From positions 1 to 64,000 of the IMG/VR virus record IMGVR_UViG_3300036770_001780: a DNA stretch of 64,000 bases; one strand, 5' to 3'. The notes below the pieces were generated by a model, which worked only from the letters and a program-made list of their open reading frames with translations, was not told where the DNA came from and searched no databases. Numbering within the stretch: position 1 is the first letter of the stretch; each line of letters opens with the position of its first letter. This stretch comes from a virus. A program made the translations under genes and the position numbers. Below, one piece after another: positions 6,306 through 21,569 of the stretch.

Positions 6306-6617
6306 TTATTGGTAATTAGCGCTGCCGTGTCCCCGTGTTCCATTGCCGCCGCTTTTGTTGCCGGAGCCGTAACCGTCTCCGCATCCGGAGCCGCAGCCGT
6401 CGCAGGAGTTGGAGTCGTAACCCACATGGCTTATACTGCTACCGCCTCCGTCGCTGTAGCCCCTGCCGCTACCGGAGCCGTGGCTATATACTCCGCCGTC
6501 TCGGTAGCCCCAGCCTTCCCCGTAGCCGCAGCCGTATCCGTATCCGTCGCCGCAGCCGCAGCCGCAGCCGTAGCCGCAGCCGTATCCGATTCCTTTGTTG
6601 AATTCTTCGTAAGTCAT
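6306..6617 (-). CDS. Gly-X repeat protein with Cys-rich tract
   Basis: 103 aa from MTYEEFNKGIGYG; AGAGGGG precedes this ATG, and an upstream ATG in frame lies within repeat sequence without a ribosome site. After a 9-residue acidic/aromatic head the protein is Gly-Cys, Gly-Tyr and Gly-Asp dipeptides (residues 10-40), then a Ser/Gly-rich half (HGSGSGRGYSDGGG). Eleven Cys residues make it the most Cys-rich of the family. Function unknown; possible substrate of the amidoligases in this cluster. Confidence 0.65.
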   Translation of the reverse strand: MTYEEFNKGIGYGCGYGCGCGCGDGYGYGCGYGEGWGYRDGGVYSHGSGSGRGYSDGGGSSISHVGYDSNSCDGCGSGCGDGYGSGNKSGGNGTRGHGSANYQ

Positions 6618-6627
6618 TGTCCCCTCT

Positions 6628-6735
6628 TTATTTGTGTTGGCCGCCGAAGCCGTCGCCGGAGCCGCCGCCATAACCTCCGCCTAGACTTCTACCGTAGCCG
6701 AAGCCGAAGCCGGAACTGTAATCCTCCTTACTCAC
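6628..6735 (-). CDS. Short Gly-rich peptide, GTG start
   Basis: 35 aa: MSKEDYSSGFGFGYG followed by Gly, Ser, Tyr and Phe to GGQHK. The GTG overlaps the TGA of the preceding Gly-X gene. The ribosome site upstream is weak, so expression would rely on coupling. Retained because it is in register with its neighbours, fills the gap between two family members and has the same acidic head plus Gly-aromatic body. Confidence 0.45.
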   Translation of the reverse strand: MSKEDYSSGFGFGYGRSLGGGYGGGSGDGFGGQHK

Positions 6736-7016
6736 ATCCCGATACCGCTGCCGTCGCCGTCGCCGCTGCCGTAGCCGCTGCCGCATCCGTCCCCGTCGCC
6801 GTCGCCGTAGCCGGAGCCTTCTCCGCAGCCATAGCCGTGATCGTAGCCGCCTCTGCCGTCGCCGTATCCGCTACTGTCGCTGTATCCGTTACCGTCCCCG
6901 CCGCAGCCGTAGCCTTTGCCGTCGCCTTCGCCCACTCCTCCGACGTGGCCGGAGCCGGAGCCGTAGATCCATCCATGGCTGTAGCCGCCGTAATCATACC
7001 TGATTGATTCGTCCAT
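6732..7016 (-). CDS. Gly-X repeat protein, MDES/YDYGGY head
   Basis: 94 aa. Head MDESIRYDYGGYSHGW, then Gly every second or third residue alternating with Ser, Asp, Tyr, Glu and Cys (YGDGDGDGCGSGYGSG near the end). GGAGGGG precedes the ATG. It shares the first ten residues almost exactly with the next gene upstream, so the two are tandem duplicates with diverged bodies. Other frames over the repeat are also open because of its 6-bp period; the ribosome site and shared head select this one. Confidence 0.7.
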   Translation of the reverse strand: MDESIRYDYGGYSHGWIYGSGSGHVGGVGEGDGKGYGCGGDGNGYSDSSGYGDGRGGYDHGYGCGEGSGYGDGDGDGCGSGYGSGDGDGSGIGM

Positions 7017-7018
7017 GA

Positions 7019-7267
7019 CTATTCCCCTCCGTCGTCTTCGTCGCTTCTTCCGTTTCCGTCTCCGTCTCCGTGGCCGTAGCCAGTTCCGTAGTCGCTGCCA
7101 TCGCCGCTGCCGTAGTCTGTTCCGTAGTATTCTCCGCCGCCGTAGCCTTTCCCGTAACCTGAACCGCTGCCGCTGCTGTCGCCGTGGTAGTAGCCAGGGC
7201 CATATCCTTCTCCAGATCCGTAGCCTTCAGCGCATCCGCCGTAATCATAACTGATTGATTCATCCAT
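7019..7267 (-). CDS. Gly-X repeat protein, MDES/YDYGGC head
   Basis: 82 aa. Head MDESISYDYGGCAEGYG, body rich in Gly-Tyr, Gly-Ser and Gly-Asp, and a distinctly acidic tail ending DEDDGGE. GAGGAG is 8-9 nt from the ATG. Two nucleotides separate its stop from the next family member's start. Paralogue of the proteins at 6732-7016 and 7283-7537. Confidence 0.7.
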   Translation of the reverse strand: MDESISYDYGGCAEGYGSGEGYGPGYYHGDSSGSGSGYGKGYGGGEYYGTDYGSGDGSDYGTGYGHGDGDGNGRSDEDDGGE

Positions 7268-7282
7268 TATCGTTTTCTCCTC

Positions 7283-7537
7283 TCACCCATCTCCGCCGCA
7301 GCCGTCGCCGCAGGCTCTGCCGTTACCGTAGCCGTATCGTTCTCCGTAGGCTCTGCCGTAACCGTCGCCGTCACCTTCGCCGCGACCATAGCTGTCGCCG
7401 CAGCCACTGCCTCCGCCGTCGCTGCTTCCGTATCCGTCGAGGTAGCCGTCTCCGAAGCCGCCGCTTTCGCCTCTTCCACGGCTGGAGCCGTGGCCATCGG
7501 CATATCCGCCATAGTTATACTTTGCTAATTCATCCAT
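7283..7537 (-). CDS. Gly-X repeat protein, MDEL/YNYGGY head
   Basis: 84 aa. Head MDELAKYNYGGYADGHG, body with Gly-Asp, Gly-Tyr, Gly-Ser and several Arg. AAGGAGG lies upstream within the end of amidoligase A, and the ATG overlaps that gene's 3' end by 8 nt, so translation is likely coupled to the enzyme. This coupling is the strongest positional link between a Gly-X peptide and an amidoligase here. Confidence 0.7.
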   Translation of the reverse strand: MDELAKYNYGGYADGHGSSRGRGESGGFGDGYLDGYGSSDGGGSGCGDSYGRGEGDGDGYGRAYGERYGYGNGRACGDGCGGDG

Positions 7538-8732
7538 CACTTCTCTCGGCCTCCTTGATAAAAGCGTGCAGCTCAGGGTAAGCCTTGCGGTTGGTTGATA
7601 CAAATTCAATGAACTTACCGGATGACAGATCCCGATAGCTACGATCTCGCGTAAAGTCGATTGTCGCCTTCACAAACTGAAGATTCTTCAGTATCCGGTC
7701 TCGCTTCAAGTTTCCCTTGAAGATGCGGAATTCGATAGTGTGATCGTTGCAGACATTAACCGCTTCGTATCGGTCGTAGCTGGTCCCGCACTTACCTATC
7801 GTCTTGCCCATTTTGAGAGCCGCCCAGCCGCTTGAATCGCGCTGGGCTATCCGTCTGACAAATCCCCAATTTTCCGGCGCATTGATGAAGACGACGATCT
7901 TTTGTATGTGCATCTTGGTTAAAGCCTTGCGCGAAACATGAACATGGAAGCCGCAGGTGCTAGTGTCGTGGCTCTTTAGCCCCTTCACCCCGTCGCCCCA
8001 GTCCTCTTTCCACAGCCGCGTGATAGCCTCCCAGGTGTGGGGATGGGTTACGATCTCGAATCCGTGGCTAATGCTGCCGTCCTCTTTGAGATACACGTGA
8101 TCCTCGCCCAGCTTGTCGAGGACCTCCTCTGCTTTCTCATCCAGGTCTGCGTTGTTTGCTAGCTCCACCTCTAACTCACAACCATAGTAGATCCTGTTGT
8201 TTTCCGCACGCCCATTAGGTGAGCCGTGGAACACGGGCAGCGGCTTATAGTCGTAACCGTGAACGTGTTCTGATTCCGGCCTGTTACAACCGCTGCAATA
8301 GTATTCTCCGTTTCTTTCGGAATAATAGAGTTCGTCTGTCGGTTGCACATCGCCGCAGGAATCACAGCATCCGTATTCGTCGGAGCAATTCGTACAGATA
8401 GGCCCGTTGCCCGAGTGCGCCCAGATGTCGTTCTTGTTCTGTAACTCATCGCAGGCTATACAGGTGAACAGGTTGTTCCTGACACAGCGGGAACACATAA
8501 TACTCTCGCCTGTTACTGTCGCCGGAGTGTCTGAAAGGTTGTTCTCACTCACTAGCTGTACACAAACCGGGCAGTTAGCTAGTTCGGACCCTTTGTTGTA
8601 TCGGTCGCTGCAATCGTCGCATACTAGCGTGCAGACTACTAACTCTTCGTCCTCGTTCAGCATTACCGGATCGCCGTTATTGGCATAGATACGGTGAGTT
8701 GTTGATGTTGCATCACAGCGTTCGCAGGGCAT
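7530..8732 (-). CDS. Zinc-ribbon/amidoligase protein, copy A
   Basis: 400 aa. Eight Cys pairs in residues 1-150 (CERC, CDDC, CPVC, CSRC, CIAC, CTNC, CDSC, CSGC) form the putative zinc-binding part. The amidoligase part has YYGCELEVE (182-190), KEDGS (216-220), GFEIVTHPHT (224-233), CGFHVHVS (260-267) and IEFRIFKG, i.e. all acidic and His residues expected of the glutamine-synthetase-like active site. It resembles copy B along its whole length but is clearly diverged, notably in the zinc part. AAAGGAGG precedes the ATG. It lies between amidotransferase A and five Gly-X genes. Predicted ATP-dependent amide-bond formation; acceptor and donor unknown. Confidence 0.87.
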   Translation of the reverse strand: MPCERCDATSTTHRIYANNGDPVMLNEDEELVVCTLVCDDCSDRYNKGSELANCPVCVQLVSENNLSDTPATVTGESIMCSRCVRNNLFTCIACDELQNKNDIWAHSGNGPICTNCSDEYGCCDSCGDVQPTDELYYSERNGEYYCSGCNRPESEHVHGYDYKPLPVFHGSPNGRAENNRIYYGCELEVELANNADLDEKAEEVLDKLGEDHVYLKEDGSISHGFEIVTHPHTWEAITRLWKEDWGDGVKGLKSHDTSTCGFHVHVSRKALTKMHIQKIVVFINAPENWGFVRRIAQRDSSGWAALKMGKTIGKCGTSYDRYEAVNVCNDHTIEFRIFKGNLKRDRILKNLQFVKATIDFTRDRSYRDLSSGKFIEFVSTNRKAYPELHAFIKEAERSDG

Positions 8733-13710: not shown

Positions 13711-13752
13711 GCGGTAGACTAGTCAGACTAGTTAGGTGGACTAGTCTACCGC
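13711..13752 (-). other. Intercistronic 14-bp hairpin
   Basis: GCGGTAGACTAGTC (13711-13724) and GACTAGTCTACCGC (13739-13752) form a perfect 14-bp inverted repeat with a 14-nt loop that itself repeats GACTAGT. It lies between two left-arm genes and lacks a T-run. It could be an RNA processing site or a protein-binding palindrome. Confidence 0.65.
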
Positions 13753-13762
13753 AAATGGATGA

Positions 13763-13978
13763 TCAGTCTAGGGCGATAATCCTACACTCGCCGTCCACCG
13801 TGATCGAATTGGGCAGGTGCCCTAGGGCGGCCGCAACAAACAGGCGGTTTTCTACGGTATCCCGCTTGTATCCATAGTCCTTTGCCGCTTCCATAGCCCC
13901 GTAGAACGTATCGCCAATGGACAGGGCCTCTGCCCAGGCGATGCCGCAAATGACGGCATTAACGTAACTATCTTTCAT
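13763..13978 (-). CDS. Small hypothetical protein, first gene of the left arm
   Basis: 71 aa from MKDSYVNAVICGIAWAEAL; AAAGGAG precedes this ATG, while an upstream in-frame start has none. Helical N-terminal half, then GYKRDTVENRLFVAAALGHL. A promoter at 14001-14028 marks it as the first gene transcribed leftwards. Confidence 0.6.
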   Translation of the reverse strand: MKDSYVNAVICGIAWAEALSIGDTFYGAMEAAKDYGYKRDTVENRLFVAAALGHLPNSITVDGECRIIALD

Positions 13979-14000: not shown

Positions 14001-14028
14001 AGAATACCACAGTGACAGGGGAAGTCAA
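14001..14028 (-). promoter_or_regulatory. Leftward promoter of the left arm
   Basis: Minus-strand TTGACT (14023-14028), 16-nt spacer, TATTCT (14001-14006) with a TGG extension. It is the first promoter left of the repeat region, so it probably starts left-arm transcription. Confidence 0.65.
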
Positions 14029-14122
14029 GCTCTAATCGCAATTAGAAGTATTAAACCTTCTTAATGTTCCCCTAGCCTATCCTTATTATATATGGGACGT
14101 GCGGCGGCGGGGCGGCTCGACT

Positions 14123-14346
14123 TAGCTAGGGTGTACGGGCTAGGGTGTACGGGGTAGAGTGGACGGGGTAGAGCGTACGGGCTAGCTTGGACAGGCTAGG
14201 GTGTACCGGCTAGCTTGGACAGGGTAGGCGGTAAGGTGTAACTCGCACTAGATAGCTTGCACAGGGTAGCTTGGACAGGGTAGCTGGTACGAGATAGCTT
14301 GGACAGGGTAGAGTGGACAGGCTAGCTTGGACGGGGTAGCTTGGAC
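14123..14346. repeat. Sixteen tandem 14-bp repeats (iteron-like)
   Basis: The 224 bp divide without remainder into sixteen 14-bp units, approximate consensus (A/G)GG(G/C)TAGCTTGGAC, most ending GGAC or GTAC. Units 5, 7, 11, 15 and 16 are near consensus; units 8 and 9 are the most degenerate. The array sits at the switch between leftward and rightward transcription, followed by a GC palindrome and an AT-rich stretch. Known phage and plasmid origins often combine iterons with AT-rich DNA; assignment here is inference. No spacers are present, so it is not a CRISPR array. Confidence 0.85.
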
Positions 14347-14845
14347 AGGCCGGCGGCCGGCGCTTAGGCGCAGAGGGTGGGGGTGGCCAGGGACGGGACG
14401 GGCATGGGGGTGGCGGCCTCCACAACCATATTTTGAATTTTTTTTTAGAAAAATGGCCACAAACAACAACCACCAACCCAACCAACTAACCCTCTCAACC
14501 ACACATCTAGCAACCATTTAGAAAAACTACCCCAATATTTCTAACCCATAAACCAAACTTATACCAGCCTCAATCCCCCCTAGCTACGGAAACGACACTT
14601 ATTCATCCTTAGCGTAGAACCGTTATCTATCGACCTATAAATCTCGCTTATACATACCCCCATTTCCGCGCTTTTCCGTCCTTCTTAGCCCATCTCTAGC
14701 CTATTCCGCCTCTATTTATAAGCCATCCTTATAACTCACCGATACTCCCCCGGTGGTAAAACCACACTTATTCCATCTAGCGGTAGAATGCTGATCTTTA
14801 TCCAGTATAAGCATTACTTATGTTATATGGGTGTTTTGGCAGTAG
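14347..14845. other. Non-coding strand-switch region: GC palindrome then AT-rich, CTTAT-rich DNA
   Basis: Begins with GGCCGGCGGCCGGCGC (14348-14363), then a G-rich stretch, then AT-rich DNA with a T9 run near 14439 and strongly C/A-biased plus strand. From about 14,560 the motif CTTATA, CTTATT or TATAAG recurs at least seven times at irregular spacing. No gene with a ribosome site or leaderless start is seen. Likely a control or origin region together with the 14-bp array. Confidence 0.6.
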
Positions 14846-14854
14846 TGGTAAGAT
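14846..14854 (+). promoter_or_regulatory. Extended -10 promoter, first rightward gene
   Basis: TGGTAAGAT with TGn extension; the ATG of the next gene follows after 8 nt with no ribosome site, implying a leaderless transcript. First rightward promoter after the strand switch. Confidence 0.6.
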
Positions 14855-14862
14855 GTGAAAGT

Positions 14863-15318
14863 ATGAAGATGACACTTCGGGCGATATCCCTTAAAGATGC
14901 AAACGCATTTGTTGAATCATTACATCGACACCATAAGAAGGTCCAGGGGCATAAATTCAGCCTTGCGGCGATAGTAGACGGGGTAATCGTTGGGGTGTGC
15001 ATTGTCGGCAGGCCGGTTGCTAGGTTACTAGACACTGGCAGGCACGTAGAGGTGACTAGGTTGTGTACGGATGGGACAAAGAATGCTTGCTCTTTCCTTT
15101 ATGGAGCGGCGGCTAGGGCGGCGCAGGCTCTTGGGTATGAGTCTATCGGTACATATATACTGGAGTCGGAGCCTGGGACATCTTTAATTGCTAGTGGGTG
15201 GAGGTTTAAGTATGCGACTGGAGGCGGGACTTGGGACCGCCCTAACCGCAGTAGATCAGATAAGCATCCAACTGTACCTAAGAAACTGTTCGTCAAGACG
15301 TTCTATCGACCTGAGTAG
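14863..15318 (+). CDS. XF1762-family GNAT-like protein
   Basis: 151 aa starting MKMTLRAISLKDANAFVESL. Segments HRHHKKVQGHKFSLAAIVDG, VGRPVARLLDTG, EVTRLCTDGTKNACSFLYGA and SEPGTSLIASGWR match the XF1762 family, small phage proteins with an acetyltransferase-like fold and unknown substrate. The ATG lies 8 nt after a -10 box; an upstream in-frame ATG would add a non-conserved extension. First rightward gene. Confidence 0.85.
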   Translation: MKMTLRAISLKDANAFVESLHRHHKKVQGHKFSLAAIVDGVIVGVCIVGRPVARLLDTGRHVEVTRLCTDGTKNACSFLYGAAARAAQALGYESIGTYILESEPGTSLIASGWRFKYATGGGTWDRPNRSRSDKHPTVPKKLFVKTFYRPE

Positions 15319-15436
15319 AGTGGGGTACCATATATCGCCAAAAACCTGAGTCTCCTGCTATCAAGTTTTCGACGAAACATAGTACTTCGCTTTCCTTAGT
15401 ACCATTGCCTGCCGGGGGTTAAAAGCGCACTTTCGG

Positions 15437-15445
15437 TGATACAAT
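15437..15445 (+). promoter_or_regulatory. Extended -10 promoter, leaderless type
   Basis: TGATACAAT; 6 nt downstream is an ATG (15452) exactly at the spacing seen for other leaderless genes of this arm. The reading frame from that ATG is broken (see next feature). Confidence 0.55.
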
Positions 15446-15451
15446 CTACAT

Positions 15452-15701
15452 ATGGGGCGGATCATTTAAGAAGCATCACATTGGCGGCAATACTACCTCT
15501 AAATCTGAGAAGTTGTGGAAGCGGATGTGTAGCCGGAAGTTGCGGAGGGCGATCAGCGAGGCGATGCTGCGCTTTGATGATGAGTGTACGGTTCTGCCGG
15601 TAGCCGATGAGGTAGTGAATAAGTGGGACGGACCTAAAGACGGTAAGAGGTATTACGATAAGGGCGAGGTTGGTCGGCATCCGAAGCTTATCCGTAAATA
15701 A
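15452..15701 (+). pseudogene. Small conserved-looking protein with frame-broken start
   Basis: The body (reading GGSFKKHHIGGNTTSKSEK and on to LIRK, about 80 codons) is open, but the ATG placed 6 nt after the -10 box is in a different frame and stops after five codons. In the body frame the codon near that place is ATA. Deleting one base near 15,461 would give MGRSFKKHHIGGN, a natural start. So either an indel (real or assembly) or an unusual ATA start. The body is basic N-terminally with a Pro/Lys/Tyr-rich end (DGPKDGKRYYDKG). An internal TTG at 15513 has no clear ribosome site. Confidence 0.5.
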
Positions 15702-21365: not shown

Positions 21366-21569
21366 ATGAACAAACATCAGAAGAAAATAGTAGCCCTGGT
21401 CTATAAGAACGCTGAAAACGGCATCTCGATTGACGAAATCGCCAAGAAGTTGAAGATTTCTCCGTTCTCACTGTCTCTTGAGGTTGACGAACTGATAAAA
21501 ATCAACGCTCTGGAGGAGTTTCCTGGCAAAATCATCAAGCCTTCCACGAAGAGATTGACTATGCTGTAG
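21366..21569 (+). CDS. Small winged-helix protein
   Basis: 67 aa. KIVALVYKNAENGISIDEIA, KKLKISPFSLSLEVDELIKI and a short wing to the end give a MarR/DprA-C-like winged helix. Probably a DNA-binding regulator. The -35 of the next promoter overlaps its last codons. Confidence 0.65.
   Translation: MNKHQKKIVALVYKNAENGISIDEIAKKLKISPFSLSLEVDELIKINALEEFPGKIIKPSTKRLTML

Follow-up and report, generated by a model that had tools for sequence, protein, structure and literature searches.

The sixteen 14-bp direct repeats at the strand switch of this phage genome (14127-14350, + strand; consensus TAGCTTGGACRGGG) are best read, with about even confidence, as a minisatellite, rich in G and specific to one lineage, that occupies a conserved spacer within the phage's only divergent control region. 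Repeats in such a position are easily mistaken for an origin or a partition site; here the relatives and the initiator gene point elsewhere. The window analysed comprises bases 1-64,000 of the 94,360-bp record IMGVR_UViG_3300036770_001780 from an uncultured phage (G000 in the comparisons), and the rest of the record was read as L002 (64001-80000) and L003 (80001-94360). Among the phage's genes are those for terminase, portal, a major head protein, ribonucleotide reductase, a DnaB-type helicase, primase, an Erf-like annealing protein and a ParB-like protein. The portal protein led to two near-complete relatives, G002 (97,490 bp, portal 97% identical) and G001 (102,748 bp, portal 90% identical), and all comparisons were made on these three genomes, the G002 record being in reverse orientation. 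G000 and G002 share 84% DNA identity overall.

The earlier note had placed sixteen 14-bp repeats at 14123-14346. Repeat finding, unit alignment and self-match recovered the same array in another phase, far above chance, and Tandem Repeats Finder reported it independently. All 16 units are exactly 14 bp long and consecutive, without an indel, and the degenerate ones are the two central units (14225-14252). Self-match at a shift of 14 bp was 0.70; none of 1000 dinucleotide shuffles exceeded 0.41, and no other part of the window exceeded 0.36. TAGCTTGGACAGGNTAG was found in 4 copies where 0 were expected. Unit columns T1, A2, G3, G7, A9, C10 and G13 are invariant or nearly so, and most other columns are two-state. 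The + strand of the array contains 42% G and 16% C. As also claimed, the array lies between the divergent arms (between the last leftward gene, starting at 13978, and the first rightward gene), it adjoins AT-rich DNA (stretches on both sides), and its spacing is not a whole number of helical turns (14/10.5 = 1.33 turns, so that every third unit is back in phase). A GC palindrome was noted as well; GGCCGGCGGCCGGC does overlap the array end, but this palindrome is missing in G001 and G002. A structured RNA from the + strand of the array (z = -8) was rejected as largely an effect of repetition, because column-permuted arrays were nearly as structured (within about 2 sd), unit order had no influence and the corresponding slots of the relatives showed no excess structure.

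The array flanks align in G001 and G002 on both sides, and the slot between them does not. The G002 slot is 186 bp long and carries GGGAAGCCG three times and CAACGGAAGTTGACA twice, while the 171-bp slot of G001 holds GGCGGTGCGGGGAACC-type repeats about 28 bp apart. The 14-bp unit, used as a weight matrix against the whole G001 and G002 genomes, gave no cluster. Looking in relatives for arrays of other sequence at the same place, as had been proposed, thus revealed unrelated G-rich repeats in both slots, with G contents on the same strand of 42% (G000), 53% (G002) and 36% (G001). Because close relatives differ in the slot sequence, a conserved phage protein is not expected to have its site in the 14-bp unit. 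Patterns built from the conserved blocks matched only G001 and G002 beyond chance, the proteins beside the slot yielded no further genome in viral and genome collections, and the slot region had no match in phage and plasmid collections. Other leads were rejected: the GNAT-like gene adjoining the slot is a widespread cargo gene and led to none, phages carrying the 12833-13423 gene have unrelated repeats and a layout that does not match, and the more distant portal relatives (44-64%) are fragments that end before the region.

What stays constant around the slot is the layout of a control region. Leftward genes extend downward from 13978 and rightward genes begin at about 14.8 kb; the two arms converge near 65.4 kb. 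A sigma70-like promoter with an extended TG, TTGACT-16-TATTCT (14001-14028, - strand), is predicted for the leftward arm; it is identical in G001 and, by eye, reads TTGCAA-16-TATTCT in G002. It alone passed the promoter scan of the window, in which rightward matches lay beyond the AT-rich patch described below. In G001 a rightward promoter, CCGACA-17-TAGAAT, passes the scan, and its position points to a weak candidate in the window, ACGACA-17-TAGAAC (14592-14620, + strand). A second rightward candidate, ACCACA-17-TAGAAT (14761-14789, + strand), read from the sequence, precedes the GNAT-like gene. The suggestion that the array is a transcription control element is therefore compatible with the promoters flanking the slot, of which the leftward is present in all three genomes; the rightward is weak in the window and was detected by the scan in one relative.

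Between these promoters, a left AT-rich block, ATTAAAC...CTTAAT...CCTATC..TT.TATATG (14044-14095), and a right GC-rich block directly after the array, GCTTAGGCGCAGnGGGT...GGTGGCGGCC.CCACAA (14351-14426), are kept in both relatives. Next comes an AT-rich patch, CATATTTTGAATTTTTTTTTAGAAAAAT (14427-14454), 76 bp from the array. In all three genomes this patch ranks among the 2-4 least stable 30-bp places, and it follows the common pattern CATATTTT.AA.TTTTT..AGAAAAAT. It is followed by a G-poor stretch (14455-14560) with 2 G per 100 bases on the + strand, the minimum of the genome, close to the genome's G maximum. A further block, CATAAACCAAACTTATACC...CCCCTAGCTA (14546-14602), is 86-89% identical in the relatives; in the alignment of the three strand switches the conserved elements include a block with CATAAACCAAACTTATAC. 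In G000 and G001 the 100-bp stretches highest and lowest in G of the whole genome adjoin at the AT-rich patch; in the reverse-oriented G002 record it is the C minimum that adjoins the C maximum. Judged by these alignments, the predicted leftward promoter, the GC-rich block, the easily melted patch and the extreme flip from G-rich to G-poor are what is conserved at the strand switch. It is this layout that persists, with the array as the filling it now has in one lineage.

A parsimony tree of the 16 units required 24 changes, about 0.11 per site. This is close to the per-lineage divergence since the G000-G002 split, roughly 0.09 as implied by the 84% DNA identity, and would fit an array amplified around or after that split and under little constraint since. 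The spread of the changes over the columns was not clearly uneven when shared ancestry was allowed for (p = 0.09). The array resembles minisatellites, which are fast-evolving tandem arrays, in that the unit is replaced between near relatives while the flanks stay. It differs from them in that the filling is always G-rich on one strand and always occupies the same slot by an easily melted patch.

In the minisatellite reading, a conserved leftward and a weaker rightward promoter, both predicted, would flank the slot, and the left AT-rich block, the right GC-rich block, the easily melted patch and the G-poor stretch form the conserved ground between them. The slot itself retains composition alone (G-rich on the + strand, with short repeats), its sequence being swapped between close relatives. 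Any effect of the array would come from its composition and spacing; it might, for instance, insulate the promoters from each other or bias local melting or R-loops. Against this reading stand the strict phase over 16 units without an indel and the invariance of T, A and C columns besides the G columns, which a bound protein would also give; the 14-bp unit may be bound specifically by a lineage-specific or host protein. It also counts against the reading that the slot adjoins one of the least stable patches of each genome, which is odd for a mere spacer, that the window's rightward promoter is weak (TAGAAC) and that the comparison comprises three genomes. For this phage group the analysis predicts a lambda-type origin in the O-like gene and a two-way control region with a fast-changing filler and a lasting strand asymmetry.

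The earlier note had offered the array as a candidate replication origin, which the comparison disfavours. A gene encoding a 469-aa O-like protein lies shortly before the primase and DnaB genes (L003:13-1422, 80.0-81.4 kb of the record, - strand). Its residues 1-100 gave weak but consistent PHROG profile matches to O-like and other replication initiators and to DnaD-like loaders (E 0.0017 to 0.4), and these matches, the gene order and the repeats within the gene suggest that it is probably the replication initiator. In lambdoid phages the middle of the initiator gene, gene O, holds the origin, which is made up of iterons and an AT-rich tract (PMC7466680). The O-like gene has a comparable locus of dyad repeats followed by an A/T-rich tract (L003:861-1070, record positions 80861-81070, outside the window): five repeats at about 80.90-81.07 kb that contain CCCTCC...GGAGGG dyads, not all of them perfect, and then TATCTTATATATATATAGAGAAAGAAAAAGAAG. 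The least stable DNA of the genome also lies within this gene. G002 has the same set of repeats and tract. In G001 the repeats, four to five in number and spaced about 21-22 bp, differ in sequence (CACCTCCAGCAGAGGTG) and are followed by an A-rich tract. The N-terminal 100 residues of the O-like protein are identical between G000 and G002, whereas the G001 protein is only 47% identical. The initiator should therefore not need the 14-bp array, which both relatives lack. Unlike the lambda origin (PMC7466680), the array lies outside the O-like gene, has no dyad and adjoins no initiator gene, and it is not that origin. Of the features of an iteron origin, the array has near-identical direct repeats (16 units) and an adjacent AT-rich unwinding region (14427-14454). 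It lacks a cognate initiator nearby, the probable one being encoded at 80.0-81.4 kb with repeats of its own, and it is not conserved alongside the initiator's DNA-binding domain, being absent from G002. The GC-skew profile proposed as a check did give a minimum at 14 kb and a maximum near 63 kb, but both coincide with gene direction; the sign of the skew tracks gene direction and is unchanged at 81 kb, so the skew argues for no particular origin. Collectively, these sequence comparisons suggest that genome replication most likely starts at the candidate lambda-type origin inside the O-like gene and not at the array.

The strand switch could still serve as a second origin, of the iteron type or of the R-loop type of T4 oriE and oriF, which we consider unlikely, though not strongly so. 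Here a G-rich transcript or bound initiators would open the AT-rich patch at 14427-14454, forks would leave both ways, and the array would be the form that the initiator-loading or R-loop part now takes. The divergent strand switch with its skew minimum, the instability of the patch and the adjoining composition extremes in all three genomes speak for such an origin, as does an R-loop-forming pattern at the strand switch of G000 and G001. T4 oriE, oriF and oriG likewise lie near transcription divergences and compositional shifts, and at oriE 12-nt repeats of unproven role occur at even intervals (PMC3016281). Like oriE, the array consists of short direct repeats at even spacing close to a strand switch and a composition shift; with the R-loop origins oriF and oriG, which combine a promoter with an unwinding element, the locus shares an AT-rich unwinding-type patch in a promoter region (PMC3016281). 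T4-type repeats are, however, syntenic in close relatives (PMC3016281), while here the repeat sequence is replaced, unit length and sequence differ and an origin role of the array is hypothetical; nor was a promoter that reads through the array identified, as oriF and oriG would lead one to expect. A second origin is further opposed by the lambda-type candidate elsewhere in the three genomes, by a candidate initiator that is conserved when the array is not, by the lack of a DnaA-box cluster, by the missing R-loop pattern in G002 and by a skew that tracks the gene strand.

The array may instead consist of operator or enhancer sites through which a DNA-binding regulator, either lineage-specific or from the host, acts on both divergent promoters. 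Its position between the promoters would suit such a role, the seven near-invariant columns and two-state positions resemble a binding site, and several genes of the G000 left arm are without a match in both G002 and G001. Yet among the proteins searched, none that is lineage-specific showed a recognisable DNA-binding domain. The phage's own HTH and ParB-like proteins are conserved in the array-free relatives, with 93% identity for the small HTH protein (21366-21569). We regard this reading as quite unlikely.

It is also doubtful that the conserved trait is strand composition itself rather than sequence, so that the strand switch would work as an origin or a transcription switch with any filling of G-rich repeats. 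Similarly tentative is the corollary that what counts is a G-rich strand on one side of the melting patch and a G-poor one on the other, with the 14-bp array as one interchangeable filling. If composition alone were selected, this would be an uncommon case of a functional, sequence-free element.

A role in packaging (as part of a pac or cos site) or as a mark of the physical genome ends is very improbable. Genome ends are commonly found in the non-coding region between divergent arms, but terminase and portal are 90-98% identical in the relatives without the array, and the three records break at unrelated places and are all read as circular maps. Both ends of the G000 record lie in AGCCGG repeats, so that this record is probably a circular map broken there. 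The least probable reading, to which we give almost no chance, is the partition site that the earlier note had proposed for the ParB-like protein (760-1704, - strand): some centromeres are direct-repeat arrays and this phage does encode a protein with an HTH_ParB domain, but comparison with the relatives indicates that it is not array-specific, being 93% identical, with its HTH region nearly unchanged, in G002, and therefore needs no such array; the site is not conserved with its ParB, no ParA was seen among the proteins searched (part of the ORFs), and the gene set looks lytic (own ribonucleotide reductase, helicase and primase).

Several further observations concern the surroundings of the control region and the rest of the record. 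An ATTAA-N6-TTAAT dyad lies at 14050-14065, upstream of the leftward promoter, and is a palindrome in G001 too. Before a leftward gene, a cluster of ACTAGT/GACTAGTC palindromes (13711-13752) is partly retained in G002 and is possibly an operator; the sole match in an Rfam search, sub-threshold and attributable to chance, fell on these palindromes. The acetyltransferase-type (GNAT-like) gene at 14788-15318, which from its sequence we take to be XF1762/Mom-like, is inserted between the control region and a conserved block downstream and is missing in G001 and G002. Downstream of it, the non-coding stretch 15324-15437 contains repeated GTACCAT motifs and is 75-79% identical in both relatives. The stretch 15440-15701 corresponds to an 82-aa protein conserved in the relatives, which is open here only from about codon 21, and an extra G near 15455 suggests a frameshift or an assembly error. 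Gly/Tyr-rich repeat genes are found at 1-154, 6306-7609 and L003:12264-14360. The helicase gene (L003:7178-10024) has an intein-splicing match, the DnaB gene (L002:12435-14552) has a large insertion with intein-like secondary hits, and the small subunit of ribonucleotide reductase (L002:1446-3356) has an extra N-terminal part.
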